Source: Acinetobacter wuhouensis
GTDB lineage: Bacteria; Pseudomonadota; Gammaproteobacteria; Pseudomonadales; Moraxellaceae
DNA length: 64,000 nucleotides
Direction: 5' to 3'
Assembly (NCBI RefSeq): GCF_001696605.3
Contig: NZ_CP031716.1
Span: 930,001 to 994,000 of the forward strand
Position 1 is the stretch's first letter. The number at the start of each line of letters is the position of its first letter. The notes under the pieces are model-generated. The model did not search any database. It was given only the letters and a program-made list of their open reading frames with translations, and was not told the origin of the DNA. Of this stretch, positions 11,064 through 31,840 are shown piece after piece. The position numbers and the translations under genes were made by a program.

Positions 11064-11290
11064 GATTAGCCTTCGGCTCGAGGCACTCTTACGAAACGAT
11101 GTTTCTCATTCGGCAAAATGAGCAGTGAAACTGCGCAAGGAAACCATCTTGCGAAGCTTTGCTTCTCACCGCAGAACTCGTCAGCTACCGAAATATATCA
11201 AGATTATCGCAAAAACATTAACTTATAAATCTTGCGCCATGACTGGCTCATGCCTCAAACAATTGTGAAGGACGTTTCCACGTATCAAAT
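11064..11290. repeat. Composite intergenic repeat with three copies of the TGAG/CGCAAG hairpin
   Basis: The segment contains, in order: GCCTTCGGCTCG (11069-11080); a plus-strand TGAG-CAGT-gaa-ACTG-CGCAAG element (11119-11139); the same element in opposite orientation with stem AAGC/GCTT (11148-11168); a shorter variant with stem CCA/TGG (11231-11250, minus); and a block 11169-11290 resembling 51280-51392 on the other strand. The first two elements face each other and can form a larger hairpin through CGCAAG and CTTGCG. No intact reading frame runs through it. Confidence 0.75.
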
Positions 11291-11409
11291 TTTTGGAAGA
11301 AATCAACTCCGAACTTAGGTTACTAAATTTAATTTAAAAACTATGTGCTTAAAACTCATCTTTTTAAAATGACTGTTTGATCGTTACATGTTTTATTTAC
11401 ATGTCACAT

Positions 11410-12093
11410 TTAACTAAGCTTTTTATAGAAAATTTTATACATCACCAAGTTAAAAGCAAAGACTACCCAACCTGTCCATAAGTTATGACTTAGGAAATGT
11501 GCGCCACGCATCATTTGTCCCCAACCCATTAAAAAACCGAGGCTTAAGCCTAAAAATAAGAATACATACGCGATCTTTGGTTTTGATGTTCTAAAGACAA
11601 AAAATCCGGTGATTAATGAAAAGCCTGAACTGGCATGACCGCCTGGAAAGCAGTGTCCGTTTGTTGCAGAAAAGTTCCAGACATAGCCTAAGGCAGTCGG
11701 TTCAGTCATTGACCATGGGCAGGCATGGGCTGAATGTGATTTAAGAATCCCAACGACAGCCGTAGATAGAATACTGATCCAAAACAGATAGCCCAATCGC
11801 CATTGATAAGGTTTTAATTTTAGATTTTTAAATGATGCAAGCCATGCCAAAAGGACAATGACATAGAATCCGATAATGATGTGTTTAACGAGTTTGTGGT
11901 TAATTTCGACGAGGAACCAATTATTTTTTAATGGGAATTTACCACTTGTATCAATCCACGGTTGAATAAAGTGCAGATCAATTGCACCACCCACAGGAAA
12001 TACAAACCATAGCACTAAAAATAATACCGCCAACAATAAACTATTTCTAAAGAAGAATTTATTTGAATCGGTATATAACATCAGGTGAATCAC
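11410..12093 (-). CDS. PAP2-superfamily membrane phosphatase
   Basis: A 227-residue integral membrane protein with about six helices and variant PAP2 motifs: K-SHSAHAC-PW for motif 1, CFPGGHASSGFS for motif 2 (usually PSGH) and RGAHFLSHNLWTGW for motif 3 with the catalytic His. This points to dephosphorylation of a lipid phosphate or diphosphate at the periplasmic face. Proteins of this subtype occur near phosphoethanolamine transferase genes in other proteobacteria (recollection of the family, not a search), and here pmrCAB is next door in the opposite orientation. A role in lipid A or undecaprenyl phosphate metabolism is plausible but not shown. Confidence 0.82.
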   Translation of the reverse strand: MIHLMLYTDSNKFFFRNSLLLAVLFLVLWFVFPVGGAIDLHFIQPWIDTSGKFPLKNNWFLVEINHKLVKHIIIGFYVIVLLAWLASFKNLKLKPYQWRLGYLFWISILSTAVVGILKSHSAHACPWSMTEPTALGYVWNFSATNGHCFPGGHASSGFSLITGFFVFRTSKPKIAYVFLFLGLSLGFLMGWGQMMRGAHFLSHNLWTGWVVFAFNLVMYKIFYKKLS

Positions 12094-12301
12094 TCTTTCT
12101 ATATTTTATTTGATGTTATTGGACAAAACTAAACTTAAATTGCTCTTAATTTTTGTAGACTGGTTGAGATTGAGCAATATATTTACTTGAATTTGATAGG
12201 TAAAAGTGTGTGTTTTAAATGTTATAAATGATTGTTTTTTTTATTGATTTAAATGTGGATCATTGCTGTGTGGTTTTTGAATCAAAGCGATTTAGAGCAA
12301 A

Positions 12302-12326
12302 TAAAAAAGCGGTCAATTTGACCGCT
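12302..12326 (-). terminator. Terminator of the amtB gene
   Basis: The inverted repeat AGCGGTCAA/TTGACCGCT, followed on the minus strand by a run of T, lies about 24 bases after the amtB stop codon. Confidence 0.87.
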
Positions 12327-12349
12327 AAATTAATTTACCCACATAGAGA

Positions 12350-13564
12350 TTAGAAAATCGCATCTTCCGAATTAGCCGAAATTTTATGAATAGATAAATC
12401 TGCACCACGAAATTCTTCTTCTTGACTCAAACGGATACCCATAGTCACTTTAAGGATGCCATAGACTGCAAATCCACCTGCAAGTGCAATGATGATTGCA
12501 AGTAGTGTTCCGATCAACTGAGACATCATTGAGACACCACCAAGCCCACCAAGCCATTGCTGACCAAAGAGTCCTACAGCGATTCCACCAAAAGCACCAC
12601 ATACGCCGTGGAGTGGCCAAACACCTAATACATCATCAATTTTGAGTTTGTTTTGGGTATAGGTGAACAATTTAACAAAGATAAAGCCCGCAAAGACACC
12701 GATCACCAATGCACCGATTGGATGCACAATATCTGAACCTGCACAGATTGCGACTAAACCTGCAAGTGGGCCATTATGTAAGAAACCTGGGTCTTCTTTT
12801 CCAAAGAAATTCGCTGAGAGTGTTCCACCGACCATAGCCATGAGTGAGTTAATTGCCACGAGACCAGAGATAGCATCTAAACGTTGTGCGCTCATCACGT
12901 TAAAGCCGAACCAACCCACAATCAGAATCCATGAACCCAGTGCAAGAAAGGGAATAGATGATGGTGGATGTGCACTGACGCGACCATCTTTTTTATAACG
13001 ACCATTACGCGCACCGAGTAATATCACCGCAGCCAGTGCAATCCATCCACCCATTGCATGTACCACGACTGAGCCTGCAAAATCATGGAAACTTGCGCCA
13101 AAAGTAGTTTCTAACCACTTTTGTAGACCAAGATTGCCATTCCATACGATTCCTTCAAAGAAAGGATAAACCAATGCCACGATAAACAGTGTTGCGATGG
13201 CTTGTGAACGCATTTTGGCACGTTCCGCGATTCCACCTGAAATGATTGCAGGAATTGCCGCGGCAAAGGTCAGTAAGAAGAAACAACGCATGAGGTTATA
13301 GCCATGTTCGGCTGAAAGCGTTGTTCCTGTATGGAAAAAATGCTGACCATAGGAAATATAGTAGCCAATAAAGAAGTAAGCGATCGCTGAAATAGAAAAA
13401 TCAGTGATAATTTTACTCAGTGCGTTGACTTGGTTTTTATGGCGAACTGTTCCCAGTTCTAAAAAAGCAAAGCCTGCATGCATCGCAAGTACAAGTACAG
13501 CGCCGAGGAGGAGGAAGAGTAAGTCTACATTTTGCATAGGATTCTTTTTGGTGCTAGTTGTCAC
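12350..13564 (-). CDS. amtB: Ammonium transporter AmtB
   Basis: A 404-residue Amt/MEP/Rh protein with eleven predicted helices. Recognisable blocks include the conserved DFAGSVVVHAMGGWIAL with its pore histidine, GWFGFN, and GVWPLHGVCGAFGG with the second pore His. It conducts NH3 or NH4+ across the inner membrane. No glnK lies beside it, unlike the usual glnK-amtB pair, so PII control must come from elsewhere. The open frame begins with GTG at 13564; an ATG at 13537 (MQNVDLLFLLLG) is equally possible and neither has a strong ribosome site. Confidence 0.93.
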   Translation of the reverse strand: MTTSTKKNPMQNVDLLFLLLGAVLVLAMHAGFAFLELGTVRHKNQVNALSKIITDFSISAIAYFFIGYYISYGQHFFHTGTTLSAEHGYNLMRCFFLLTFAAAIPAIISGGIAERAKMRSQAIATLFIVALVYPFFEGIVWNGNLGLQKWLETTFGASFHDFAGSVVVHAMGGWIALAAVILLGARNGRYKKDGRVSAHPPSSIPFLALGSWILIVGWFGFNVMSAQRLDAISGLVAINSLMAMVGGTLSANFFGKEDPGFLHNGPLAGLVAICAGSDIVHPIGALVIGVFAGFIFVKLFTYTQNKLKIDDVLGVWPLHGVCGAFGGIAVGLFGQQWLGGLGGVSMMSQLIGTLLAIIIALAGGFAVYGILKVTMGIRLSQEEEFRGADLSIHKISANSEDAIF

Positions 13565-13838
13565 AATTTGGTTCAGTATAGCGAAGCATTTTGTATATCG
13601 CAGTAGTTCGGATGTGGGAAAAAATGATTAAACAATTCAAATTTTTATCAAGACTCGATATAAAGCAAAGCGTTGCACTGTTTTAGATTTTCCGCACCAA
13701 TTTGATGCAATAATTTTATTTGTATTTCTTGCAAGCTATTGAATTTATTTTAATTGTTTTTTTGGACTTTTGATGTTTTCTTGGTTGGTGTGTTAAGGGT
13801 TGAAAATTATTTTGGATATTTTTTGTGGTGCTTTAAAA

Positions 13839-14444
13839 TTACGCATCACATTGTCCAGCATTATCGAAAGCACTCAAATACCATTGTTTGTCGATTTTAC
13901 TGAAATATAAATGTAGATCGTCACCGATGCTACGACTTTTACTAACATATTGAAGTTCAATAACTTGTTTTTCAAATAGTTTTAGCTGATTCAATTGATG
14001 TGTAACCTCTTCATTGCTTTGCTCAATGATAGGTTGGTTGGATTTGGTTAAGTCTGAAAATGGTTTTGTTGTTAAGGTCTTGTAGTAAAGCCCTGATTTA
14101 TTCCATTTTTGGCAATCCATTTCAGGTAATTGATTCGTTTTGATTAATTTTTCTTGGGCATTGGGTGCTTCATAGAACCATCGTGTTGATTCCGGCGAAT
14201 CTTGGTTAGGAAATTTAAATTCTGATTTTTGAAAGATACTTTGATTAATTGGAACTCCTATTTTATTCCAATAGATCACACCATATTGGGGATGTATATG
14301 CTGTTGCAGTAATTGATTGTCTTGAGTTTTAAAGCTTTTTAACACTGATTTGATTGTACTTTCTAGCAGAGGATCATTCTGCGCAAAACTGACAGAGCTT
14401 AGCCCTAGATTAATTAAAATTGTGAGTATAAGTTGCTTTATCAT
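13839..14444 (-). CDS. Secreted protein of unknown function
   Basis: A 201-residue protein I do not recognise. The first 22 residues are a classical signal peptide (hydrophobic LILTILINLGLSSV, cleavage after SFA), so the product is probably periplasmic. The mature part is polar, with two cysteines (CQKW and the final GQCDA) that could form a disulfide, and the ending QWYLSAFDNAGQ resembles small lipid- or wall-associated domains only loosely. It has its own promoter region and a repeat lies just upstream. Confidence 0.65.
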   Translation of the reverse strand: MIKQLILTILINLGLSSVSFAQNDPLLESTIKSVLKSFKTQDNQLLQQHIHPQYGVIYWNKIGVPINQSIFQKSEFKFPNQDSPESTRWFYEAPNAQEKLIKTNQLPEMDCQKWNKSGLYYKTLTTKPFSDLTKSNQPIIEQSNEEVTHQLNQLKLFEKQVIELQYVSKSRSIGDDLHLYFSKIDKQWYLSAFDNAGQCDA

Positions 14445-14763
14445 TTGTGTAGTTGTTTGTTTTGATAATAGATTTATACATTATTTTAGGGTGGAAAGTG
14501 GTTTTATTTTTGTGTGGTTTTTTGATTTGCTTCTCCTAAAACGAGAAGAACCTCTCCCTAACCCTCTCCTAAAAGGAGAGGGAACATCGTGTACCAAATC
14601 ATTTACGTGATACTCCCTCTCCCTATGGGGTGAGCAACATTGTTGCGCAAGGGGGGGAGGGTACTAGTCACGCATAAATAAGGACTTGGAGAGTTGGATA
14701 TGTCCTAAGTCTACAAGTTTGGTAATGGATGATACTTTTTTGATAGTCAAATTTTTTTAAATA
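14445..14763. repeat. Intergenic gap with C/G-rich palindromes and a TGAG/CGCAAG element
   Basis: Two palindromic blocks lie in this 319-base gap. The first (14551-14582) has CCCTCTCC facing GGAGAGGG. The second (14613-14659) has CTCCCTCTCCC facing GGGGGGAGGG with the element TGAG-CAAC-att-GTTG-CGCAAG (14631-14651) at its tip. The layout matches 27308-27431 closely. No gene is supported here. Confidence 0.75.
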
Positions 14764-15450
14764 TTATATCAAGGAATAAAGGCTAGACTTCGTCACAGGT
14801 ATTTCTTCTAGTTCATACTTTTCTAGAATCGATTTAATTATAGGCAAAACTAAATTATCAGCATAAGGTGAAATATGAACATGCTTAATTAATTTTTTTA
14901 TATCGATATCTAAGTTGATACCTTTTTCGTGTACCCATGACATATTTGGTTGTAGAGGTTCATTTTCTACTGGAACATGCCAGTAAATAGCTCGATACTC
15001 TTGTTCGTGCAGAAATGATTTGCGTTTGTAAGCTAAAATATCATGGATATTTAAAGTACCAGTTTTTGTGAAGCATAGATCTATAATTGAGTCAGTTTGA
15101 TAATCAATATAGTCTACTTTGTGTAGATAAACTCTTGAAGGAAGGAGTTCCGAAAGAGTTTTTATATTTGTCTCAATGGCTATTGAATCATTAATTACGC
15201 CGTATAGTTTCCACATTGCAGCTGATTCATAGGCATTTTGATGCCAACAATTAATAAATGTTGTTGATCGTTGAATTATCATTTCAAGGCTAGGATTCTG
15301 TTTTAATTTTTCTTGATCAGATTTAGTGAGTATTCCCTCATATACATCTTCGTAATTGTCAGCTCTGTTAAAATATATGCTTTTATTAATTATAAGAGCA
15401 AGGAATTTTGTTAAATCCATATAACGCCACAACTTTTCATTATCTGACAT
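14764..15450 (-). CDS. DUF2971 domain protein
   Basis: A 228-residue protein matching the DUF2971 pattern: KLWRYMDLTKFLALI near the N-terminus, then FNRADNYEDVYEG, FINCWHQNAYESAAMWKLYG, and a central basic-hydrophobic block KRKSFLHEQEYRAIYW. The conserved W and charged residues suggest an enzyme, but the function is unknown; members occur sporadically and often beside mobile or defence genes. Here it stands alone between housekeeping genes. Its codons are more AT-rich than those of neighbouring gatB, consistent with acquisition, which is inference. Confidence 0.78.
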   Translation of the reverse strand: MSDNEKLWRYMDLTKFLALIINKSIYFNRADNYEDVYEGILTKSDQEKLKQNPSLEMIIQRSTTFINCWHQNAYESAAMWKLYGVINDSIAIETNIKTLSELLPSRVYLHKVDYIDYQTDSIIDLCFTKTGTLNIHDILAYKRKSFLHEQEYRAIYWHVPVENEPLQPNMSWVHEKGINLDIDIKKLIKHVHISPYADNLVLPIIKSILEKYELEEIPVTKSSLYSLI

Positions 15451-15470
15451 ATTTATTTAATTTCCTAAAT

Positions 15471-15497
15471 TAAAAACCCCGCATTAAGCGAGGTTTT
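15471..15497 (-). terminator. Terminator of gatCAB
   Basis: On the minus strand AAACCTCGC pairs with GCGGGGTTT (one G-T wobble) around a 5-base loop and is followed by T residues, about 32 bases after the gatB stop. Confidence 0.83.
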
Positions 15498-15528
15498 ATA
15501 ACATGAAATCAATTGATTGACGAATAAA

Positions 15529-17010
15529 TTAACCAATCAGTTTCTTCATCAATTCATTCACTTGTGCAGGGTTAGCTTTACCCTTAGACGCTTTCATCAC
15601 TTGACCAACAAGACCATTGAACGCTTTGTCTTTACCCGACTTATACTCTTCAACCATCTTCTCATTTGCCGCAAGCACTTCTTTAATAATCGCTTCAATC
15701 GCGCCTGTATCAGTTTCCTGTTTCAAGCCTTTTTCAGCAATAATTTCATCCGCAGTTTTGCCTTCATCCCACATAAAGCCAAACACTTGTTTCGCAATCT
15801 TACCGCTAATTGTGTTATCAACAATACGTGCAATCATGCCACCCAATTGCTCAGCTGACACAGGAGAATCATGAAGTTCTAGGTTAGCCTTGTTTAAAGC
15901 ACCAGAGAATTCACCCATCACCCAGTTTGCAGAAACTTTACCTTGAGCAGCACCGCCAGCAGCAGTCACGACAGCTTCATAAAAGTCTGCCATTTCACGA
16001 GAAAGCGTAAGTACATGCGCATCATACTCAGTCACAGCAAAGTCAGCGATAAAACGCGCACGACGTGCTTTAGGTAACTCAGGAAGATTCGCTTTCGCTT
16101 CCTCAATTTGAGCATCAGGAATGATCACAGGAAGCAAGTCAGGATCAGGGAAGTAGCGGTAATCGTTCGCTTCTTCTTTTGAACGCATAGAACGCGTTTC
16201 CATCTTCACAGTATCAAACAAACGTGTTTCTTGGTCGATCTTACCGCCATCTTCCAAGATTTCCATTTGACGTTGAATTTCAACATTGATCGCTTGTTCG
16301 ATGAAACGGAAAGAGTTGATGTTTTTCAATTCACAACGCGTACCAAACTCATCACCTGGTTGGCGTAAAGATACGTTACAGTCACAACGGAATGAACCTT
16401 CCGCCATGTTACCGTCAGAAATACCTAACCAACGCACCAATGTGTGAATCGCTTTGATATAAGCCAAAGCTTCTTCAACCGAACGCATATCAGGTTCAGA
16501 TACGATTTCAAGCAAAGGCGTACCGGCACGGTTTAAGTCGATGCCTGACATACCTTCAAACTGATCGTGAATCGATTTACCCGCATCTTCTTCCAAATGC
16601 GCACGTGTCACGCCTATACGCTTCACAGTACCATCTTCAAGCTGAATGTCGATATGACCTAGCCCAACGATCGGATTGTCCATTTGGCTGATTTGGTAGC
16701 CTTTCGGAGAGTCAGGATAAAAATAGTTTTTACGTGCAAATACAGACGCTTGGTCGATATAGGCATCAATCCCCAAACCAAAACGAATCGCAAGATCAAC
16801 CACTTCCTTGTTTAAAACTGGAAGTACACCTGGCATTGCTAAATCAACAAGGCTGGCTTGTGTATTTGGGTCTTGACCAAAAGTCGTTGAAGAACCTGAG
16901 AAAATTTTAGAATTGGTCGCAAGTTGCGTATGGATTTCGATACCAATAACGACTTCCCAACCATCGATCAAGTTTGACTTAGGTTTTACTGCTTTTTGAG
17001 CTTGAGCCAT
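15529..17010 (-). CDS. gatB: Asp/Glu-tRNA amidotransferase subunit B
   Basis: A 493-residue GatB. The kinase-like catalytic core holds [25 protein letters not shown] and [14 protein letters not shown]; the C-terminal helical YqeY-like tail (last 100 residues) binds tRNA. With GatA and GatC it converts Glu-tRNA(Gln) or Asp-tRNA(Asn) to the amide using glutamine-derived ammonia and ATP. The correct start is the ATG at 17010, which overlaps the gatA stop (TAATG) after GGAG; the frame runs on upstream but that part overlaps gatA. Confidence 0.96.
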
Positions 17011-18488
17011 TATGCATTCTCCTCCGCAATTGCCGCACGTTTGGTATGCCAATCTGTATTTTGTTGATATTGATGAACAATCGACAACAATTGAGATTCT
17101 GACCAATAATTACCAATCAACTGTAAACCTACAGGTAAGCTGTTTGCATCAAAACCAACAGGGGCATTGATTGCAGGCAGACCTGCCAAGTTCACAGCAA
17201 GGGTGTAAATGTCACCTAAGTACATTTCAGTCGGGCTAAGATTCGCACCGATTTTATAAGCTGTAGTTGGCGCAGATGGTGCAGCAATCACATCGACATT
17301 TTCAAAGGCTTTTAAGAAGTCTTGTTGGATTAAACGACGTACTTTTTGTGCTTTGACATAATACGCATCGTAATAACCCGCAGAAAGCGCGTATGTACCA
17401 ATCAAGATACGACGCTGAACTTCAGCACCAAAACCTTCAGAACGTGAACGTTTATAAAGATCTAAAATGTCAGTTGGGTTTTCACAACGGTAACCGTAGC
17501 GAACGCCATCAAAACGTGACAAGTTAGAAGAAGCTTCAGCAGGCGCAATCAAATAATAAGTTGGTACATAAGCTTCGCTCATGGTGAGATCAATCTCAAC
17601 CAAGGTCGCGCCCATGTCTTCCAATTTTTTCAAAGATTCTTCAACGCGCGCTTTAACGTCAGCATCTAAACCTTGAACATTGAAGTATTGTTTAGGAATA
17701 CCAATACGTAAGCCTTTAACCGCAGTGCCATTCAAGTTTGCAACGTAGTCATCAACTTCTTTATTGATCGATGTTGAGTCTTTTTCATCATGACCCGCCA
17801 TGACATTCATCAAATAAGCACAGTCTTCTGCAGAACGTGCCATTGGACCACCTTGGTCCATAGATGATGCGTAGGCAATCATACCGAAACGTGAAACACG
17901 ACCATAAGTTGGTTTAAGACCTGTTAGACCACAGAATGATGCAGGTTGACGAATTGAACCGCCTGTATCCGTACCTGTTGCAAAAGGTGCAAGGTCAGCA
18001 GCAACAACGGCAGCAGAACCACCAGAAGACCCCCCAGGTACGTGTTCTAAATTCCACGGGTTTTTAGTCGCACCAAAAAACGGGTTTTCAGAAGTTGATC
18101 CCATGGCAAATTCATCCATGTTCACTTTACCGAGTGTCACAAGTCCATCTGTTTTACCTTTCGCAACGACAGTTGCATCATAAGGAGAGACAAAGTTATT
18201 CAGCATTTTTGAACCCGCTGTGGTTTTAATGCCGTGGGTACAAAAAATATCTTTATGGGCAATCGGTACACCAGTCAATGCAGTCGCATTACCAGTTTTA
18301 AGTGCAGCATCAGCAGCATCAGCTTGAGCCAATGCTTGCTCAGCAGTTACCGTAATGTATGAATTGACACGATCATCAATTTTAGCAATACGGTTTAAAT
18401 AATGTTGAGTCAATTCGCGTGATGAAAACTGAGCGCTTTTTAAGCCTTCTGCCATTTCACGAATCGATAAACGGTGTAAATCAGTCAT
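17010..18488 (-). CDS. gatA: Asp/Glu-tRNA amidotransferase subunit A
   Basis: A 492-residue amidase-signature enzyme. The Ser-cisSer-Lys triad is visible: Lys in [17 protein letters not shown] (cis-Ser) and [11 protein letters not shown] (nucleophile Ser). It releases ammonia from glutamine for GatB. It is translationally coupled to gatB by a one-base overlap and lies 52 bases after gatC, so gatC-gatA-gatB is one operon. Confidence 0.97.
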
Positions 18489-18540
18489 GAGTACAATTCT
18501 TTACGATTAATTTTTAAAAATAAGTTTAACTGATCAAATA

Positions 18541-18855
18541 TTATTCAATCACACGTGGAACGAGGTACAAACCGTCCTGAATAGCAGGGGCAACGGCTTG
18601 ATATTCTTCACGATGGTTCTCTTCAGTCACCACATCAGGGCGAAGAGGTTGAGGGTTGTCAAAAGGGTTCTTTAGCGGCTCAACACCATCAGTATTGATC
18701 GCTTTTAAGCTCTCCATCATCCCTAAGATTTTATTTAAACTTTGAGCATATTCAGCAGATTGCGTATCATTAAGCGACAATCGAGCAAGATTGGCGATTT
18801 GCGATACAGTTTGTGCATTTAATTCTGCAGAATGCTGAGCATCTGAACTTGACAT
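18541..18855 (-). CDS. gatC: Asp/Glu-tRNA amidotransferase subunit C
   Basis: A 104-residue GatC, normal length, with VSQIANLARLSLNDTQ and the C-terminal PLRPDVVTEENHREEYQAVAPAIQDGLYLVPRVIE. GatC wraps around GatA and stabilises the complex. It is the first gene of the operon and is divergent from mreB, with both promoters in the 135-base gap. Confidence 0.95.
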   Translation of the reverse strand: MSSSDAQHSAELNAQTVSQIANLARLSLNDTQSAEYAQSLNKILGMMESLKAINTDGVEPLKNPFDNPQPLRPDVVTEENHREEYQAVAPAIQDGLYLVPRVIE

Positions 18856-18981
18856 GATGTCTCACCTAATCAGTTTTAAAAAAATTCAAAATATCGTGCG
18901 TTATAATAAGCGATTGACTTGTTCAAATCATCACATTTAGTTAAAGTTGCCATCTTGCGTCCATACTAAAGTTTAAACTGA

Positions 18982-20031
<1,050 letters not shown>

Positions 20032-23479: not shown

Positions 23480-23482
23480 AAT

Positions 23483-23532: not shown

Positions 23533-23609
23533 CGTTGATTTGACAATACTAAGACTAAAGGTAGCCAAAGACTTTCTCCCTTTAACAGTCTTAGCAAGTG
23601 AGGTCAATA

Positions 23610-23783
23610 ATGAGCGTAAGTGAACAATTAATAACTCGTGGTATCAAACATGTATTGGAAAACCAACCTAAAAATACATGTGTAATGTTGGATGACAATG
23701 GTCAAGAAATTAAAATCACCAAAGATATGGTGGTGAATGTTTGTCACCAATTACTGAATAAATGTCGTAATGTTAAAAATTAA
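23610..23783 (+). CDS. PA1571-type small protein of unknown function
   Basis: A 57-residue protein with ATG at 23610 behind a GAGGT ribosome site; an in-frame GTG upstream is less likely. The C-terminal half, CVMLDDNGQEIKITKDMVVNVCHQLLNKC, follows the pattern of the small PA1571 family of Pseudomonas and Acinetobacter (acid-G-x-E-I-x-I-T then helix with Cys). No function is known. It has its own strong terminator, so it is likely transcribed as a single short mRNA. Confidence 0.7.
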   Translation: MSVSEQLITRGIKHVLENQPKNTCVMLDDNGQEIKITKDMVVNVCHQLLNKCRNVKN

Positions 23784-23811
23784 GAGGCTAAAATAAGCCT
23801 CTTATTTTTTT
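23782..23811 (+). terminator. Terminator of the PA1571-type gene
   Basis: TAAGAGGCT pairs with AGCCTCTTA and is followed by a run of T. The stem begins inside the stop codon. Confidence 0.9.
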
Positions 23812-23903
23812 GTAGGATGTTTTATTTCAAAAGATCAAAAATTATAAAAATCTATAAAATAATATGCTCAATATTTATATTTAAAATTTAGCAAAATAAA
23901 AAA

Positions 23904-23927
23904 CAAAAGCCCTTATGAGGGCTTTTG
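23904..23927 (-). terminator. Terminator overlapping the end of atfA
   Basis: CAAAAGCCC pairs with GGGCTTTTG and is followed on the minus strand by GTTTTTT. The atfA stop codon (23913-23915) is in the loop, so the 5' arm encodes the last residues of the protein. Confidence 0.88.
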
Positions 23928-25355
23928 TGTTTGGATAGATTCTTCAATTACATTGTTGGTTTTCAATGGAATTTCAACTGGAGTTTGTTCAGATACCTGT
24001 GTTTTTTGAGGAATTAACTGCTCAAACTTTTGGATTTCATTTTCTAAATGCGTCAATAAATTTTGCAATTTAGGCAATGATTTACGGCAACCCGTCAATC
24101 CTACTTCCAATTTATCCAAATAACTGGTCATGGTGATGTTCAGTGCCTGTCCATCCAAAACAATAGATGCAGGGTAGAGTGCATCTAGTTTCGCACCATT
24201 CCAGTACAAAGGTTCACGAGGACCTGGTACATTGGAAATGATGACGTTGAAAGCTTGGTGTTTTGGTAATAGCCCCGATGCAATATTGACTCCGGCAGCA
24301 CCATATACAAAAGCACTGTAGTTTAAAATTTGATTTGAGGTCATGCGCTTAAAGCGATTTTTAGAGTTCTGTACACTACGTTGAATGATTTCTAAACGTT
24401 CTAAAGGTTGCTCTTTATGTGTGCCTAAATTTGCTAAAATCATGGTGATACGGTTACTCATGTCTGAGTCGTCATCACGTAAGGATGCTGGAACCATTGC
24501 GATGAGTGGTTTCTTTGGCAAGGCATTTTGAGTAATCAGATAATCACGGAGTGCACCAGAACAAACAGCCAAAACGACATCATTAATCGTTACACCCAGC
24601 GCTTTAGAAATATCTCTGAAACGATCTAGTTCAAACGATTGAGCGGCAAAGCGGCGTGAAGAACTGACACGTTGGTTAAACAGACTGCTCGGTGCTTGGA
24701 AAGTTGAAACATAGTCAGGGTTTTTGCCCATTTCTTTGAAAATGGTCTGACACAATTCCTGAGTCACTTTCGGAGCCGCTTCAACTTGTCCTTTGAGACC
24801 TTCAAAAACTTTCTTGATTTTTCCTAATTTGGTTTCTTTTAAACGCTTGGCACGTTTACCTTCTACACACCATGGTGGAATGATGGTCTTAGAATTTGAA
24901 TCTTTAGAGAATGACTTTTCGAGTAAGCGCATACCTGCAACACCATCAATCATGGCATGATGGATTTTGAAATACATGGCAAAGCGATTGCCTTCAATCC
25001 CTTCGATGATATGACAAGTCCATAAAGGTTTTGCACGATCAATCAAAGCACTGTGCTCTTGCGAAATATAGACCAATAATTCACGAATACGGCCTGGGTG
25101 TGGTAGGGCAATATGACGGAAGTGATGATCAATATCGAACTCTTCATCTTCATCCCAAAAAAAACCATTTAAGCGGTTATTAAAAGGTGGAACAGGGATA
25201 GATTTCGAATTACGAATATCAGCCACTAGATCTTGAATAAATGTAGATGGGGCATGGTCTGGAATTTGGAATAAGAATAATCCCCCCACGTGCATTGGCT
25301 GTTGGCGTTTTTCTAAATTTAAGAAAATAAAATCGATCGGGTGTAATGGGCGCAT
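23913..25355 (-). CDS. atfA: Wax ester synthase/diacylglycerol acyltransferase AtfA
   Basis: A 480-residue WS/DGAT enzyme very similar to A. baylyi AtfA along its whole length. It starts at the ATG 25355 (MRPLHPIDFIFLNLEKRQQP); the frame extends 13 codons upstream but that part is not conserved. The catalytic HHxxxDG motif is HHAMIDG at residues 132-138. The C-terminal domain carries NVPGPREPLYWNGAKLDALYP. The enzyme makes wax esters and triacylglycerols from acyl-CoA on the membrane or lipid droplets for storage. The last 25 or so residues are a Gln/Thr-rich tail beyond the conserved fold. Confidence 0.96.
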   Translation of the reverse strand: MRPLHPIDFIFLNLEKRQQPMHVGGLFLFQIPDHAPSTFIQDLVADIRNSKSIPVPPFNNRLNGFFWDEDEEFDIDHHFRHIALPHPGRIRELLVYISQEHSALIDRAKPLWTCHIIEGIEGNRFAMYFKIHHAMIDGVAGMRLLEKSFSKDSNSKTIIPPWCVEGKRAKRLKETKLGKIKKVFEGLKGQVEAAPKVTQELCQTIFKEMGKNPDYVSTFQAPSSLFNQRVSSSRRFAAQSFELDRFRDISKALGVTINDVVLAVCSGALRDYLITQNALPKKPLIAMVPASLRDDDSDMSNRITMILANLGTHKEQPLERLEIIQRSVQNSKNRFKRMTSNQILNYSAFVYGAAGVNIASGLLPKHQAFNVIISNVPGPREPLYWNGAKLDALYPASIVLDGQALNITMTSYLDKLEVGLTGCRKSLPKLQNLLTHLENEIQKFEQLIPQKTQVSEQTPVEIPLKTNNVIEESIQTQKPS

Positions 25356-25488
25356 AATTTTTGATGCCTCACTGCAAAAACTACAACAACTCATTCCTGA
25401 GTGTTGGATTGTTAGAATTATAAAACCTAATTGTAGTATAGATCTTTTTTATAGAGAAAATCCAAGCATTTTGATGAATGAATAGTAC

Positions 25489-25520
25489 AAAAAAAGTCAC
25501 TAAATTGAGTGACTTTTTTT
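25489..25520 (-). terminator. Terminator of cysH
   Basis: AAAAGTCACT pairs with AGTGACTTTT around a short loop, with T-runs on both sides, about 28 bases after the cysH stop. The minus-strand reading fits cysH. Confidence 0.9.
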
Positions 25521-25547
25521 TACCAAGAAAATTATTTTATCAGGCTG

Positions 25548-26282
25548 TTATTTTTTTAGGTTACCTGCATGTAAACCACACTCTTTGTGAGTTGCTTCTT
25601 CCCACCACCAGCGACCTTCACGTTCATGTTGGTTAGGTAGAACAGGACGTGTACATGGTTCACAGCCAATAGAAATATAACCTTTCTCATGCAGTGGGTT
25701 ATACGGAATTTCCATCATACGAATATAGTTCCAAACATCCGCACTTGACCAATTTGCCAAAGGATTATATTTAATCAATTGTTTGCCTTCACCCGAAAAA
25801 CCAGCATCAGCTTGAACCACTGGAATTTCAGTACGTGTGCCTGGACTTTGATCTTTACGTTGACCCGTAATCCAACCATCTAAAGTGGCTAACTTTTTAC
25901 GTAAGGGCTGAACTTTACGAATACCACAACATTCTTTATGGTCGTCTTGATAAAAGCTAAACAAGCCTTTTTCATTCACCAACTTTTGTACGGCATCAGA
26001 TTCTGGAAAACAGATCTCAATCTGAATGCCATAATGTTTGCGTACAGTTTCAAGAAATTGATAAGTTTCTGCATGCAAACGCCCTGTATCCAAACTGAAT
26101 ACTCGAAAGGGTTTACCGAGATTGTGTGCCATATCGATCAGCACCACATCTTCTGCACCAGAAAATGAAATCGCAATTTCACCTTGTTGAGAAAGTGCTA
26201 GCTCTAAAATTTCAGAAGGGGATTTATCAGCATATTCTGCTGCAAGTGCATCTACTTGATCAATTGTAGGAATAACAGTCAT
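25548..26282 (-). CDS. cysH: Assimilatory adenylyl-sulfate (APS) reductase, CysH family
   Basis: A 244-residue PAPS/APS reductase. The PP-loop [13 protein letters not shown] binds the nucleotide, and the C-terminal KECGLH holds the catalytic Cys. Two cysteine pairs, KECCGIRK and GCEPC, are the ligands of a [4Fe-4S] cluster, which marks the thioredoxin-dependent APS-reducing type rather than the cluster-free E. coli PAPS enzyme. It reduces APS to sulfite in cysteine synthesis. It stands alone, not in a cysDN or cysIJ cluster. Confidence 0.93.
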
Positions 26283-26635
26283 TTGTTGCCTCTGGCTATA
26301 GCTTGAAGCTAGGTTTACTTAAAAGTAGTCAACACTTTAAAAAGTATTTAAAAAATTAGTTCTCAAAAGATCTGTAAATTTAAGCATTTTGGCGAAAAAT
26401 AAGCCAATACGACTTTGTATGTATAAATGCTTTTGAATGTCATGCTATTTTAAAGTAAATAAAATATGCTTCTTAGCAGATTTATGAAAATACTTATGAA
26501 TTAAAAAGATTTAAACAGAGTCGAAATCCTCATTGATAAGTTTTCATTTGCTGAAGTATCAAAATCTTTCAGCATTTTTTTTAAACTTTAATGCTATGAT
26601 ACGCCAAAATTTACAACTAACATTTGGGAGAACCC
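26283..26635. other. Gap between divergent cysH and thrH
   Basis: This 353-base AT-rich gap carries the promoters of both genes and, unexpectedly, a plus-strand terminator hairpin at 26549-26582 just ahead of thrH. A TATGAT hexamer at 26595-26600 could be the thrH -10. No open frame of interest is seen. Confidence 0.55.
26549..26582 (+). terminator. Terminator-like hairpin upstream of thrH
   Basis: TGCTGAA pairs perfectly with TTCAGCA around a 12-base loop and is followed by eight T. It lies 54 bases before the thrH start, after the start of divergent cysH, so no annotated plus-strand gene precedes it within the gap. It could end a small RNA or act as an attenuator in a thrH leader. Confidence 0.7.
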
Positions 26636-27253
26636 ATGGAAATCGTATGTCTTGATCTTGAGGGTGTTTTGGTTCCAGAAATCTGGATCAATTTTGCTAA
26701 AAAAACAGGGATCAAAGAATTAGAAGCAACAACTCGTGATATTCCAGACTACGATGTGTTGATGACTCAACGTTTAAATATCCTAAAACAACATGGTTTA
26801 GGTTTAAACGATATTCAAGCTGTGATTGCAGACATGGGGCCTTTTGAAGGTGCAAAAGAGTTTGTGGAATGGGTGCGCACGCATTTCCAATTGATTATTC
26901 TTTCAGATACGTTCTATGAATTTGCTCATCCTTTGATGCAACAACTGGGTTGGCCAACCATTTTCTGCCATAAATTAGAAACTGATGAAAATGGCATGAT
27001 TACTGCGTATAAATTGCGTCAGCCTGATCAAAAGCGTGAAGCTGTGAAAGCACTTCATGGTTTGAATTATCGTGTGATTGCAGCAGGTGATTCGTATAAC
27101 GATACCACGATGTTGGGTGAAGCTGACAAAGGTTTCTTGTTTGATGCGCCTGAAAATGTGATTCGTGAATTTCCACAATTCCCACCGATTCATGGTTATG
27201 CAGCGTTGAAAGAGGCGATTCGTAATGCTTCTGTACGTGACATTCCAGCTTAA
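26636..27253 (+). CDS. thrH: Bifunctional phosphoserine phosphatase/homoserine phosphotransferase ThrH
   Basis: A 205-residue HAD-family protein. The nucleophile motif is DLEGVLVPE, with Glu in place of the second Asp as in ThrH. Motif II is the SDT of LIILSDTFYEF, and motif III is AAGDSYNDTTML. ThrH removes phosphate from phosphoserine and can pass it to homoserine. ATG at 26636 follows GGGAGA; the in-frame TTG upstream is weaker. Confidence 0.92.
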   Translation: MEIVCLDLEGVLVPEIWINFAKKTGIKELEATTRDIPDYDVLMTQRLNILKQHGLGLNDIQAVIADMGPFEGAKEFVEWVRTHFQLIILSDTFYEFAHPLMQQLGWPTIFCHKLETDENGMITAYKLRQPDQKREAVKALHGLNYRVIAAGDSYNDTTMLGEADKGFLFDAPENVIREFPQFPPIHGYAALKEAIRNASVRDIPA

Positions 27254-27307
27254 GCTTGGATGGTGAGAAAAGATGCTGAGGCGTAATGCTAGTTAGCTAA
27301 GAATTGT

Positions 27308-27431
27308 TGAATCCTCCCCCGACCCTCCTTTTTAAAGGAGGGAGCTTTCATTACTGAAAATCAATTTAGTCACGATAAGTTCCCCTCTTTTTTAAAGATG
27401 AGTAGCTAGGCTACGCAAGAGGTGAGATTTT
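27308..27431. repeat. C/G-rich palindromes with a TGAG/CGCAAG element, after thrH
   Basis: First palindrome: CCCTCCTTT facing AAAGGAGGG (27324-27343). Second: CCCCTCTT facing AAGAGGTG, with TGAG-TAGC-tag-GCTA-CGCAAG (27399-27419) at the tip. The same two-palindrome order occurs at 14551-14659. It lies between the convergent ends of thrH and tesA and could act as a shared 3' structure. Confidence 0.75.
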
Positions 27432-27516
27432 AGAAATTTTTCCAATAATTTTGCTTAACTAATCAGCATTACGCTGAAGCATCTTTTTTTTATATTTTTA
27501 ATTGCAAATAAATAAT

Positions 27517-28137
27517 TTAATCAATCAATGCTCCTTTAATCAACGGATAAGCATTGTTCAATAAAACTTTCTGCGCAGTTGCATTTGGATGAATTAAATC
27601 CTTTTGCATTAAATTCGGATGACCTGCCACGCCTTCCATAAAAAATGGATGCATTTTCACTTTATATTGCTGACTTAAAATCTTGTAATTATTTTCAAAA
27701 GCCGTGCTATAGGCTGTGCCGTAGTTTGGTGGAATCTTCATTCCCAGTAAAACTACCATTGCTTTACTTTTCTGACTTTGTTGAATAAGTTGTGCCAAAT
27801 TTTTTTGAATCATTTGCGGTGGCTGACCACGTAAGCCATCATTTCCACCCAGTTCGATGACCACTACATTTGGCTTATGGGTTTGTAAGAGTTTCGGCAA
27901 ACGTGCCAAAGCACCACTGGTGGTTTCTCCACTCACACTGGCATTCACGACTTTATGTTGTTTGGGAAAGTCTTGATTTAGACGTAATTGTAATAAATTC
28001 ACCCAACCCTGTTGCGGTGTGATGCCATAGCCTGCACTTAAACTATCGCCTACGATCATGATGGTTTTTGCAAAACTACTAATCGGCAATAGACAGATCG
28101 TGCTAAAGAATAAACAATGAGGGAGTTTTTTCATCAT
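27517..28137 (-). CDS. tesA: Periplasmic GDSL lysophospholipase/thioesterase TesA
   Basis: An SGNH hydrolase of 206 residues from the ATG at 28137, with a signal peptide ending SFA before KTIMIVGDSLSAGYG. The block I Ser (GDSLS), block III GGNDGLRG and block V DLIHPNA (Asp-His) are present. TesA hydrolyses acyl thioesters and lysophospholipids in the periplasm. It is divergent from ybbA, the same order as tesA-ybbAP in E. coli. The frame continues upstream; starts at 28134 and 28167 are also possible. Confidence 0.9.
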   Translation of the reverse strand: MMKKLPHCLFFSTICLLPISSFAKTIMIVGDSLSAGYGITPQQGWVNLLQLRLNQDFPKQHKVVNASVSGETTSGALARLPKLLQTHKPNVVVIELGGNDGLRGQPPQMIQKNLAQLIQQSQKSKAMVVLLGMKIPPNYGTAYSTAFENNYKILSQQYKVKMHPFFMEGVAGHPNLMQKDLIHPNATAQKVLLNNAYPLIKGALID

Positions 28138-28179
28138 TTTAAAATTTAACGATTTTTTGATTTGCATATAGGGTACTTT

Positions 28180-28929
28180 ATGATGTCTAAGGTTCAGAAT
28201 GATTCGGTTTCTCCCATCATGCCACAAGTGATAATTTCTGCACAGCAACTGACACAAAAGATTGAACTCCCACATCAAACACTTACAATTTTTGAAAATT
28301 TGAACTTAGAAATTCAGGCAGGGGAACAGGTTGCCATTACAGGACGTTCAGGCTCAGGAAAATCAACATTATTAGGTATTCTGGCAACTTTGGATCAAGC
28401 CAGTGCAGGGCAGTTAACGGTATGCGGTGAGTCTGTTGAACATTTAAATGAAGAGCAACGCGCATTGGTTCGGTTAAAACATATTGGTTTTGTATTCCAG
28501 TCTTTTCAATTATTGACACACTTATCTGCACTTGAAAATGTCATGCTGCCTCTGCGCTTACAAAAAGATTTTAACTACGCAGCCGCTGAACAAAAAGCAT
28601 TGGCTCTGCTCGCCAAAGTAGGTCTAGAGCGCCAAAGTCAACAGACCCCAAAAGTATTATCAGGGGGGGAACAGCAACGTGTAGCAATTGCACGGGCGCT
28701 CATTTCTGAGCCAAAAATTATTTTTGCTGATGAACCCACAGGGAATTTAGACAGTCATACTGCACATGAAATTGAACAGCTTTTGTTTAGCTTAAATCAA
28801 GAAATGGGCACAACACTTGTACTCGTGACACATGATCCTGCTTTGGCAGCACAATGCCAACGCCATTATGAGTTAAAAGAAGGGCAACTCATTGAACATT
28901 TACATCAAACTCAGCCAGAGGGTGTGTAA
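28180..28929 (+). CDS. ybbA: ABC transporter ATP-binding protein YbbA
   Basis: A 249-residue ATPase of the LolD/MacB group. Walker [11 protein letters not shown]-loop VFQSFQLL, signature LSGGEQQR and Walker [14 protein letters not shown] are intact. With YbbP it forms a type VII ABC system that works on the cell envelope rather than as a classical importer. Start at ATG 28180 or 28183; only about 42 bases separate it from tesA. The stop overlaps the ybbP ATG by one base. Confidence 0.92.
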
Positions 28930-31466
28930 TGTTCAATTTATTTAAGCCACTTTTGAGGCAAAGTTTTGCCAATTCAGGGATTTATTTACTGATTGTAGCC
29001 ATGTGTTTAGCGATCAGTGCTACGACTGCATTGAAATTTAGCAATGACCAAGTGCAGCAAGCAGTGACCTTGCAAGCTGCCAAGATGCAAGCTGCTGATT
29101 TAGTTCTGAGTGATACCAATCCGATTGATTCAAAATGGATTCAATCTGCAAATGAATTAAAGCTCAAACAGTCCCATGTCACCATGTTTGGTTCAATGGC
29201 ATCAACGCATGATCAATTTGTCATGGTGAATGTCAAAGCGATTGATACATCATTTCCACTGCGCGGTGATTTAAAAATTCAGCCTGCACAAAAATTGCAA
29301 AGTGGTGGAATTTGGTTAAGTAAACGTGCGCAAGAATTACTCAAATTAAATGTCGGTGACGATGTACAACTGGCTGATGGTCAATTCAAAGTCACTGGAA
29401 TTATCGAACATGATTCCAATCAAGAATTAGGTTTTTCGGCATTTTCACCAACCGTCATCATTTCGCAAGCGGATGTGGCTAAAACCAATGCAATTCAAGT
29501 GGGCAGTCGTATTGATTACCGTCTTCTTTTGGCGGGAGAGCCTCAATCCATTGAAAAATTTCAGCAAATTTATAAGACAGAGATTGAAACTGAAAAGCAA
29601 AAATATGCCAAAGCAAATGACCAAAAATCTGATCAGGATTCAGCTACAGATCAATCTGTTCAAGCCATGTCGAATGAAGAGCAAAGCTTCGATCAACAAA
29701 GCAATTTAAAGCTACGCAGTGCCGATGAGGGAAATTCGCGTTTAATTAAGCCGATAGAAAACTTAGATACTTTTCTACAACTCGCCAATATTCTCACGAT
29801 TTTACTGTGTGGTTTAGCGATAGCCTTGACCAGTCAGCGTTATGTGCAACAAAACCAAGATCATATTGCTTTGATGCGTTGTATGGGGGCAAGTAAATCT
29901 CAGATTCTGCAAACCTATTTAGCACTATTAGCTGTCGTGAGCGTGATTGCGATTGTGATCGGTAGTGGTCTAGGCATGATATTGGGCTATGCGCTTTTGC
30001 AACTGATGTTACAGATGATCCCGAATCTAGAACTGCAATTCTCAATGTTTGAAATGTTGCTTGGTCCTTTACCAATTGCCATTTTTACCAGTGCCATTGT
30101 TTTGATCGGTTTTATTTTGCCGAGTTTGTGGCAATTGTTAAATACGCCTCCAATTCGTGTAATTCGTCAACAACAAAAATCTACCCGTTCAATGGTGTGG
30201 ATGATGTCTTTTGGCATATTAAGTCTGATCATTTTTAGTTTGGTATTGACTGAAAATATTGTACTGACTGGATTGGTCATGGGTGCGGTCATTGTCCTCA
30301 CGGCAGTGCTATATGTACTGGTTTGGTCAATTTTGAAATTGCTTAAATCGCTACGTAACCAAATGTCTAGTTATGTACGCTCGCCATCACAAACAGCATT
30401 GCAAATTACTGCATTGGCATTGGGTTTAAGTTTGATTACGGTTTTAGCCGTGTTACGTACTGATTTGCTGGAGCGTTGGCAACAGCAATTGCCTGAGGGA
30501 ACACCAAATCAATTCATTTATGGTTTACCGCCTTTTGAATTAGACCAATTTAAGCAACAATTGGCGCAACGTCATTGGAAAAGTACGCCTTTATATCCAA
30601 ATATTAAAGGGCGTTTAATTGCGAAAAATGATCAGCCTTTTTCAGCGCAATTGTTAAAGGAAAATAATTCTTTACGCCGTGAATTAAATTTGACTCAAAC
30701 AGATCAATATCCGCAAGATAATGTGATTGTATCGGGTCAAGCTAAACTGACTAAAGTTGGGCAAGTTTCAGTTGAAGCAAAACTTGCGGATGAATTAGGT
30801 ATCAAAATTGGTGATCAACTGACGTTTAGTTTGCCAGAGGGGCAATTAAAAGCTGAAGTTGTCAATTTACGTACTGTTGAATGGCAAAGTTTTAGTCCGA
30901 ATTTTTTCTTTATTTTTACCCCAAAGACTTTGGATGAAAATGCAGGGAGCTATCTCGGTAGTTTTTATGTGCCAGCGACTGAAAAAACCAAAATGGTCAG
31001 TTTGATTCAGCAATTTTCCAATACTGTATTTATTGATGTGTCTTTGATTTTTGATGAGATTAAACGCCTTGTGAGTGTTCTCGTACAAATCATTACAGTG
31101 CTTGCTGTATTAGTGAGTTTGTCTGGTTTTCTTGTGTTGATTGCATGTATCAATTTACTGATGGATGAGCGGAAACGTGAAGTGGCGTTATTACGTTCTT
31201 TTGGCAGTTCGAAGCGTCAGCTCAAAAATATGATGATGCTTGAAATTGGTTTTATTGGATTATTGGCAGGGATTGTGTCATGTATTTTTGCTGAGGTGAT
31301 TAGTGCAGTTGCGAGTTATCGGATGGATATGATAGTGCAATTGCATTGGGAAATTTGGTTGATTTTACCACTGGTAATGGCAGTGCTGTGTGCATTGATC
31401 GGGCGTTATCGTTTGAGTTATCTGTCTGATATTCCGCCGTTGCAAAGTTTGAGAGAGTTGGGGTGA
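28929..31466 (+). CDS. ybbP: ABC transporter permease YbbP
   Basis: An 845-residue membrane protein with two FtsX-like domains. One helix near residue 20 is followed by a periplasmic part, three helices at about 285-415, two central helices, a second periplasmic part and three final helices (about 710-830). The FtsX segments contain RQLKNMMMLEIGFIGLLAGI and ASKSQILQTYLALLAVVSV. A Gln/Ser-rich linker (residues 215-260) in the first periplasmic domain looks variable. Partner of YbbA; role likely in lipid or envelope homeostasis beside TesA. Confidence 0.9.
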   Translation: MFNLFKPLLRQSFANSGIYLLIVAMCLAISATTALKFSNDQVQQAVTLQAAKMQAADLVLSDTNPIDSKWIQSANELKLKQSHVTMFGSMASTHDQFVMVNVKAIDTSFPLRGDLKIQPAQKLQSGGIWLSKRAQELLKLNVGDDVQLADGQFKVTGIIEHDSNQELGFSAFSPTVIISQADVAKTNAIQVGSRIDYRLLLAGEPQSIEKFQQIYKTEIETEKQKYAKANDQKSDQDSATDQSVQAMSNEEQSFDQQSNLKLRSADEGNSRLIKPIENLDTFLQLANILTILLCGLAIALTSQRYVQQNQDHIALMRCMGASKSQILQTYLALLAVVSVIAIVIGSGLGMILGYALLQLMLQMIPNLELQFSMFEMLLGPLPIAIFTSAIVLIGFILPSLWQLLNTPPIRVIRQQQKSTRSMVWMMSFGILSLIIFSLVLTENIVLTGLVMGAVIVLTAVLYVLVWSILKLLKSLRNQMSSYVRSPSQTALQITALALGLSLITVLAVLRTDLLERWQQQLPEGTPNQFIYGLPPFELDQFKQQLAQRHWKSTPLYPNIKGRLIAKNDQPFSAQLLKENNSLRRELNLTQTDQYPQDNVIVSGQAKLTKVGQVSVEAKLADELGIKIGDQLTFSLPEGQLKAEVVNLRTVEWQSFSPNFFFIFTPKTLDENAGSYLGSFYVPATEKTKMVSLIQQFSNTVFIDVSLIFDEIKRLVSVLVQIITVLAVLVSLSGFLVLIACINLLMDERKREVALLRSFGSSKRQLKNMMMLEIGFIGLLAGIVSCIFAEVISAVASYRMDMIVQLHWEIWLILPLVMAVLCALIGRYRLSYLSDIPPLQSLRELG

Positions 31467-31840
31467 TTCACTTGGATTTAATAGTCATGTAAATATACAA
31501 ACTGGATGAACGATATCAATAACGAGCGCTGTTAGTGATTTCAATATGGTTGGTGCTATCACGTTTGGCGACATGGATGTCGCCGTTGGGTTGGGGTTCA
31601 GGTCACTTGCGAAGCCTTGCTTCTCATTACCCAACAAAGGATTTTTGTCCCTCTTACGGAATATATTCCTTATCCTTCAAAAGGGAGGCATCGCCTACGT
31701 AAATTAATTAAACTTTGTAAAACAGGTGGGGCTATGCTGTTTCAAGAACAATACTTGATTTATTTTTTAATGATTAACTCTGATTTAATTTTTATAAGTT
31801 TCAAAATGTTAGGTTTGAGGTAATGAGCATTCATGATGCT
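31467..31840. repeat. Gap with palindromes and a TGAG/CGCAAG element, after ybbP
   Basis: Between convergent ybbP and the dedA-like gene lies a perfect palindrome GGCGACAT-gg-ATGTCGCC (31567-31584), then GTTGGGT and ACCCAAC flanking a minus-strand element with stem AAGC/GCTT (31606-31626), then a short TCCTTCAAAAGGGAGG palindrome. A 68-codon open frame across the repeat is judged spurious. Confidence 0.72.

Follow-up and report, generated by a model that had tools for sequence, protein, structure and literature searches.

PMC3733652 describes repetitive extragenic palindromes (REPs) by a tag, GTAG or GTGG, with which REP-associated tyrosine transposases (RAYTs) go in that class; REPs of the CGTC class have no dedicated transposase, and some families are seated in palindromes. 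E. coli REPs require a mismatch in their stem, according to the accessible part of PMC8266576. The partial text of PMC6382973 describes miniature inverted-repeat transposable elements (MITEs) as having terminal inverted repeats and target duplications; one of Acinetobacter, MITEAba12, is 111-114 bp long with 9-bp duplications. Since their insertion is seldom caught with a clean before and after, the spread of REP-like palindromes is still poorly understood. We describe here a small hairpin, TGAG-N11-CGCAAG (hereafter the TGAG hairpin), carried by a 64,000-nt stretch of the Acinetobacter wuhouensis genome (3.96 Mb; bases 930001-994000 of contig NZ_CP031716.1, C8 in our numbering; hereafter the window). 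It occurs at many unrelated sites and in both orientations and, judging from the comparison of filled and empty sites, very probably enters new ones by replacing 5-7 existing bases.

The first indication came from a dispersed repeat, family A, in which each of two slots is short (6 nt) in some copies and filled (usually 21 nt) in others. Whole matches measure 42-43, 58 or 71-73 nt, and at 71 nt it is just one slot that is filled, by a longer hairpin. We generalised this observation: 40 nt were taken on each side of every hairpin and homologous places were sought in the loci, on both strands and with any intervening sequence. A first pass dealt with 149 contexts and a second with 187 contexts in 85 slots, 26 of which had empty counterparts. 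Once slots had been merged by hand and the D units read separately, 17 target positions were defined; with four more (I1-I4) in an element of the IS3 family of insertion sequences (IS), there are 21, i.e. 15 in four repeat families (A, B, C and D), two elsewhere and four in the IS. At all 21 the hairpin replaces 5-7 nt, and neither pure insertion nor target duplication was seen. By the preferred reading the replaced length is 5 nt at three positions, 6 nt at 11 and 7 nt at seven. In the last run, 193 hairpin sites were examined and a gap of 5-7 nt was seen at 135 homologous places (24 of 5 nt, 54 of 6 nt and 57 of 7 nt); these places include overlapping loci and are therefore not independent. 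No gaps of -10 to 4 nt or of 8-16 nt were found, the next being at 17 nt; filled places peaked at 20-22 nt, with a few at 34-40 nt.

Two sets of positions illustrate the rule. The D unit was entered by two hairpins with different stems, 2 nt apart (D1a and D1b), each in exchange for 7 nt (GAGGGTT and GGGTTAG), and its slots D1, D2 and D3 were filled in the combinations 000, 001, 100, 101, 110 and 111. The IS3-family element, found on Acinetobacter plasmids and a viral contig, was compared in 14 of 18 loci: 6, 6, 6 and 7 nt are replaced at I1, I2, I3 and I4, respectively (5 nt at I3 in one comparison), three of these positions being inside the transposase gene and one just ahead of its annotated start. 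That the same IS positions were hit in copies of differing background suggests hot spots or exchange between copies.

As a separate observation on this IS, copies resembling ISAba18, ISAba19 and ISAba34 at locus L173 and at the plasmid loci L283-L288, L291, L293 and L294 have up to three TGAG hairpins in or beside the transposase gene.

The empty form is the ancestral one, because filled copies break palindromes or the IS3 transposase gene. A palindrome is intact in empty copies and interrupted in filled ones at A1, C-alpha, D1a, D2 and D3, and the four IS3 copies with a transposase annotation that entered the comparison have no hairpin. D1a and D1b are two different stems with one shared empty sequence, which excludes decay of both back to empty. 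In the best filled/empty pairs for I2, I3, I4 and A6, the flanks are identical at 197, 197, 197 and 196 of 200 bases, respectively, which implies that some of the movement is recent; in the best pairs for six other slots compared, identity was at 161-181 of 200 bases.

The targets are often the arm or the loop of an existing hairpin. Among the 19 of 21 positions where folding could be tested, 12 were in the top 10% of local single-stranded DNA (ssDNA) stability within 300 nt, with a median rank of 0.045. The junctions show preferences as well: among 41 distinct contexts, the element is followed by A or G in 36 and preceded by T in only one, against a background T frequency of 0.317.

Several points weigh against replacement by a mobile unit. 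Places that bear a hairpin are over-represented among the loci sampled. When control sites were displaced by 70 nt, their gaps still peaked at 21 nt, and there were some gaps of 5-8, 15-19, 24, 32-36 and 60 nt; these stray gaps probably come from neighbouring slots in the same repeats. Depending on the copy compared, the replaced length varies by 1-2 nt, within the 5-7 range, at A1, A3, B1, C-alpha, C-beta, C-gamma' and I3. The slots were merged by hand, and A4 and A5, 1 nt apart, are possibly one position. At I1, the bases directly after the hairpin differ from the empty copies too. As for target folding, seven of the 19 positions (A2, A3, A6, C-beta, I1, I2 and I3) fall outside the top 10%, and several of the 12 stable ones share a hairpin (D1a/D1b, A1/A4, C-gamma/C-gamma') and so are not independent. 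For two of the eight window copies, those at 14631 and 31606, no empty counterpart was found among the homologous places in the loci compared. A search with PF01797 (Y1_Tnp) that was positive in E. coli gave no match in the present genome, and the loci examined contain no REPtron-like gene, i.e. no open reading frame (ORF) of at least 90 aa flanked on each side by a TGAG hairpin less than about 260 nt away. Lastly, movement is deduced from the comparison of sites and was never directly observed.

The initial annotation, made from the letters of the window, had listed five 21-nt copies, and all were located exactly where it had put them, strands included (Table 1). The shorter sixth copy that it had mentioned is also present, on the - strand, and two further variants were found, giving eight copies: five exact and three variant, all the latter on the - strand. 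The copies in slots A1 and A2 of the 11-kb locus are inverted partners with an 8-nt spacer. As had been noticed, three of the four loci are flanked by convergent ORFs (10776(+)/11410(-), 27253(+)/27517(-) and 31466(+)/31841(-)), and the locus at 14631 sits between two - strand ORFs. The repeat is in clear excess over controls: a window scan allowing at most one mismatch gave 9 matches against 2.65 expected from shuffles (9 was reached in 0 of 100), and the whole genome has 54 exact matches against one for the reversed-pattern control.

Table 1. Coordinates, in the window, of the TGAG hairpins, their host repeats and other features, followed by the sequences present at empty slots.
Feature	Position	Strand	Remarks
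Family-A dispersed repeat	11033..11250		Four filled slots; ends approximate, by eye; elsewhere spans CGGAGTCTT to GTAGTCCT
Variant hairpin TGAG..CGTAAG, stem AAAC/GTTT	11088..11108	-	Slot A4; empty copies: 5 nt, ACAAA
TGAG hairpin, stem CAGT/ACTG	11119..11139	+	Slot A1 of family-A repeat; empty copies: 6 nt, GTAGGC
TGAG hairpin, stem AAGC/GCTT	11148..11168	-	Slot A2; empty copies: ATGACA (hairpin strand)
20-nt hairpin TGAGCCAGTCATGGCGCAAG	11231..11250	-	Slot A6; empty copies: 7 nt, GGACTAC
TGAG hairpin, stem CAAC/GTTG	14631..14651	+	Within CCCTCTCCC..GGGGAGGG palindrome
Imperfect target duplication of C unit, left copy, GCTGAGGC	27275..27282		By eye; right copy GCTGAAGC at 27473-27480
Family-C MITE-like repeat, terminal inverted repeats (TAATGCTGATCAGTTAAG type)	27284..27471		Seated in terminator hairpin
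TGAG hairpin, stem TAGC/GCTA	27399..27419	+	Slot C-gamma; empty copies: 6 nt, GGGGTT
Family-B dispersed repeat stretch	31551..31738		Common to other copies in present and related genomes
TGAG hairpin, stem AAGC/GCTT	31606..31626	-	In family-B repeat
Variant hairpin TAAGGAATATATTCCGTAAG, TAAG..CGTAAG	31653..31672	-	Slot B1; empty copies: 5 nt, TCAAA, 6 in half of variants
FMN riboswitch	36318..36478	-	Rfam scan
Four tRNA genes in a row	41572..42029	-	Rfam scan; equal-scoring
RNase P RNA	59127..59504		Rfam scan
Empty sequences, A slots			A1 GTAGGC, A2 ATGACA, A3 TATTTT, A4 ACAAA, A5 CAAAA, A6 GGACTAC
Empty sequences, B and C slots			B1 TCAAA, C-alpha AGGGTTG, C-beta GCTTTTC, C-gamma GGGGTT, C-gamma' CTCTTT
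Empty sequences, D slots			D1a GAGGGTT, D1b GGGTTAG, D2 AAAGGG, D3 GAAGGCT
Empty sequences, other slots			X1 TAAATC, X2 CCACTT

The consensus of the unit is T(G/A)A, a variable stem-loop and G(C/T)AAG, usually 20-21 nt forming one hairpin; the T(G/A)AG start was fixed by the search design and is no independent result. Among the 54 genome matches, the 4-bp stem is perfect in 48, has one mismatch in three, and three or four mismatches in the remaining three, which are chance-like. When the 3' arms were re-dealt among the 54, perfect pairing occurred in 8.4 on average and in 20 at most. Covariation was computed on the 32 distinct 21-mers, without selection for pairing: stem changes on both sides were seen in 31 cells versus 8.4 in shuffles (0 of 500 shuffles), and the score was 0.551 against a shuffled mean of 0.195, dropping to 0.14 or less when the partner was slid by 1-3 columns. 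The stems thus vary while remaining paired, as had been proposed. The companion idea, that the fixed flanking strands form an asymmetric internal loop, was right as to their being fixed and wrong as to their being simply unpaired: in the ssDNA fold of the isolated hairpin, ((.(((((...))))).)).., a fixed A.G mismatch is enclosed by the pairing of TG with CA, and AG protrudes as a tail at the 3' end; this is also predicted at three of the four window loci. At the 11-kb locus another ssDNA fold is best, with a stability no better than that of shuffles (z -0.19); the z values at the other three loci are -2.70, -1.91 and -1.46. The outer flank pair is G-C in 147 of 176 cases, A-T in 5 and G-T in 6; the dominance of G-C comes partly from the way loci were fetched, and G-C/A-T covariation of this pair is only suggestive.

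Two larger arrangements were also noted. A longer hairpin with the same ends (TGAGGATCCTCAAAATATATTTTGAGTCCG(C/T)AAG or near) fills slot A2 at G073:C99:53577-53647 and at loci L014, L026, L030 and L040, where it gives gaps of 34-35 nt instead of the 21-nt form. At L021 (G000:C8, about 1557420-1557512), a 70-nt tandem duplication has a TGAG..CGCAAG hairpin with an AGGC/GCCT stem in each copy, at the tip of a GTCC../..GGAC palindrome.

By eye, about 40 of the 51 genome hairpins lie within families A, B, C and D. The initial annotation had placed most copies at the tip of a larger inverted repeat with its own variable arms: the inverted repeats are there, but instead of being part of the element they are pre-existing palindromic targets, mostly older dispersed repeats that serve as host sites. 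Family C carries terminal inverted repeats and is bordered by target duplications some 10 nt long (L007, L037 and L038, read by eye), and several C units, the window copy among them, lie within terminator-like hairpins; families A, B and D may be MITE-like as well. No match to families A, B or C was found on plasmids. Stretches from six relatives were compared with the window. At the 27-kb locus the C unit is absent from all six: in three the intergenic region is short (71-108 nt), two have a longer, different stretch, and relative G087 has a family-A repeat without the A1 and A2 hairpins. In the same stretches, neither the 11-kb nor the 14-kb locus could be matched to an orthologous empty site, their flanking genes not being found, and just one of the two flanking genes of the 31-kb locus was found. 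We infer that most genomic copies come from later copying of the host repeats A-D and not from separate insertion.

At least one exact match was present in 147 of 149 Acinetobacter genomes, with counts of 0 to 54, and at least 20 matches in 20 of them, the present genome included; the reversed-pattern control gave at most 6 per genome. Many matches listed for low-count genomes are unpaired, and such counts carry little meaning. In an order-wide scan (293 genomes, 291 of them outside the genus), the highest count outside Acinetobacter, 18, came from two genomes whose controls gave 9 and 7. Only two of the 70 matches in ten further genomes of the family had perfect stems; these are identical hairpins (TGAGGAGCACTGCTCCGCAAG) of a single non-Acinetobacter genome (G188:C1:765716 and 1359736), perhaps brought in on a mobile element. 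The paired form, i.e. two inverted hairpins with an 8-nt spacer and 20 fixed bases, was searched for in a collection of 84,980 species and found in 39 stretches, 38 from Acinetobacter and one from Sporosarcina (L159); in the latter the stems are unpaired, and the match is at about chance level (257 billion bases / 4^20, or ~0.2 expected). The present genome has eight paired forms and one more inverted pair with a wider spacer. Essentially, the hairpin is an Acinetobacter element. Its 51 genomic copies lie between tandem ORFs (25), between convergent ORFs (20), between divergent ORFs (2) or inside an ORF (4); 47 are outside ORFs of at least 90 aa, and three of the four internal ones are in ORFs of at most 105 aa. 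Locus L017 (G000:C8, about 1356988) has a palindromic repeat with a TGAG hairpin (one stem mismatch) inside an uninterrupted open frame of 992 codons, which resembles the in-frame palindromic elements of Rickettsia.

Candidate enzymes were sought among the 149 Acinetobacter genomes, 26 of which gave PF01797 matches. The test that followed was confined to the 16 strong full-length Y1 proteins, and all were IS200/IS605 transposases; another eight genomes gave fragments and weak matches. A correlation with IS200/IS605 TnpA genes was rejected by eye: none of the hairpin-rich genomes G063, G096, G143, G014 and G002 gave a PF01797 match. IS200/IS605 insertion is not known to remove bases from its target. 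RAYT-like genes were recognised, as weak matches, in two of the 149 genomes, G077 (NF047646, 155.1 bits for a cut-off of 80) and G065 (60.6 bits, below the cut-off). The first has GTAG/CTAC-tagged hairpins on both sides, while the second lies between related hairpins, of which one or more has CTAC; no TGAG hairpin was found near either gene, and a RAYT partnership was rejected for both, flanked as they are by hairpins of other sequence. The two RAYT-like genes, each with its own hairpins on both sides, lie at L068 2100-2780 (GTAG/CTAC-tagged at both ends) and L070 2100-2800; both are candidate classical REPtrons.

The reading that best accounts for these data, and very probably the right one as far as site comparison can tell, is that of a mobile DNA hairpin that is non-autonomous, does not depend on a RAYT and inserts by replacement of a short segment. 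The unit would move as ssDNA at the replication fork, element and target both being folded, and the folded unit would be exchanged for about half a helical turn of the target strand. The agent might be a single-strand nuclease or transposase acting in trans, or fork template-switching; the constant footprint of 6+/-1 nt would reflect the spacing of two strand breaks, and the stems would stay paired since only paired copies move. That the agent is an exchange enzyme is a possibility we put at somewhat less than even. We are equally tentative in proposing a new mode of DNA mobility, in which a folded strand of 21 nt takes the place of about 6 nt of a target strand, in many cases where another hairpin lies, and spreads genus-wide and onto plasmids without a REP transposase, by means of a single-strand exchange enzyme or of the replication and repair machinery alone.

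Spread could also need no dedicated enzyme at all, and proceed by replication template switching or short-patch illegitimate recombination of ssDNA fragments. Naturally transformable Acinetobacter is prone to the latter, and short-patch double illegitimate recombination yields replacement, not insertion. Many of the targets are hairpin-prone and stem changes leave both arms paired, as such a process would have it, but microhomology junctions should vary, whereas the ends TGAG/CGCAAG and the loss of 5-7 nt at all 21 positions are too constant to fit them, and the purine preference at +1 suggests a recognised junction; we hold this explanation somewhat unlikely. It is distinctly less probable that the hairpins are relics of an ordinary GTAG-class REP whose RAYT has since been lost from the present genome. 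They do look the part, with a small intergenic hairpin, a fixed stem mismatch and inverted pairs with an 8-nt spacer, and loss of REPtrons is allowed by PMC3733652 in its accessible part. Yet no fixed GTAG or GTGG precedes the hairpin, the RAYT-like genes recognised in the genus belong with other hairpins and the strong Y1 proteins examined with IS200/IS605, hairpin-rich genomes such as G063 (53 matches) have no PF01797 match, and the recent insertions imply a live process.

The two other explanations deny the hairpin a mobility of its own. An RNA motif selected at gene ends (3' untranslated region (UTR) hairpin, mRNA 3'-end protector or protein-binding site) would fit the covarying stems and the scarcity of copies in divergent regions, although the latter is expected of any insertion that harms promoters; what speaks against it is that hairpins at sites of one kind lie in either orientation, form inverted pairs, interrupt a transposase gene and are polymorphic in their presence between near-identical copies, and we consider it very unlikely. 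Of the three alternatives that the initial annotation had left for a structured element, the REP-like mobile unit is thus favoured by the 21 filled/empty positions, and the purely RNA-level 3' UTR motif is disfavoured by the inverted pairs, the two orientations and the transposase insertion. Alternatively, the hairpins might be mere passengers of the MITE-like repeats A-D and never move alone, in keeping with the share of copies within these families and with the C units, which have terminal inverted repeats and duplications. To this we give almost no credence: the same type of hairpin is found at 15 positions in four families, at two elsewhere and at four in an IS, and slots within one family are filled in many combinations. 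The passenger explanation was rejected for the origin of the slots; it still holds for most of the growth in copy number.

If the TGAG hairpin is a mobile unit, its interest lies first in the preservation of the before state at 21 positions, with one rule, 20-21 nt in and 5-7 nt out, that constrains any mechanism. It suggests that a RAYT is not indispensable for REP-like spread, and hairpin mobility can be tested in a transformable laboratory strain (A. baylyi). The hairpins also give a genus that is the subject of much hospital research a layer of insertions that are small, recent and easy to type.

As to its place among known systems, the initial annotation did not know it as a described family, and neither did our searches: none of the eight window matches above the Rfam gathering score covers a hairpin, and among the titles and abstracts listed by literature searches (subscription journals being outside reach) none describes the TGAG..CGCAAG repeat. 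Replacement of 5-7 nt was not encountered in the accessible parts of PMC3116915, PMC3733652, PMC8266576 and PMC6006769, and the word "Acinetobacter" does not appear in the main text of PMC3733652, PMC8266576, PMC6006769 or PMC2817692; nor was the term SPDIR, for short-patch double illegitimate recombination, found in that of PMC5312590. An intrinsic terminator would end in a T-run, whereas the element ends in AAG followed, as said, mostly by a purine. With MITEs it shares the status of short non-autonomous repeat, and host unit C is, by eye, of this kind; the 21-nt hairpin itself has neither terminal inverted repeats nor target duplication, and costs its target 5-7 nt at every one of the 21 positions. 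The subterminal hairpins of IS200/IS605 are likewise ssDNA hairpins, recognised by a Y1 transposase, with no larger target duplication (PMC2817692, in its available part), and they differ in that the present genome has no Y1 gene match. Like the CGTC-class REPs and the Rickettsia palindromic elements, the TGAG hairpin is a palindrome without dedicated transposase and sometimes lies inside genes (PMC3733652, same parts); its tag and sequence are others, with TGAG/CGCAAG ends and variable flanking bases. The likeness is closest to GTAG-class REPs and REPINs, which the same parts of PMC3733652 describe as 20- to 40-nt hairpins, scattered, mainly intergenic, in inverted pairs and sometimes inside ORFs, with alternative complementary bases in their stems and some families seated in palindromes: here too we have a short, mostly extragenic palindrome in many copies (54 matches, eight inverted pairs, 47 of 51 outside ORFs). 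What sets it apart is the replacement of 5-7 nt, the tag (the bases before the hairpin vary in 41 contexts, with GTAG in none and GTGG in one, L029, within 2 nt) and the RAYT, since none accompanied by the same hairpins was recognised in the present genome or among the 149 of the genus. It is on these last two counts, tag and RAYT, that we do not file the TGAG hairpin as a REP, REP-like though it appears to be in its working.

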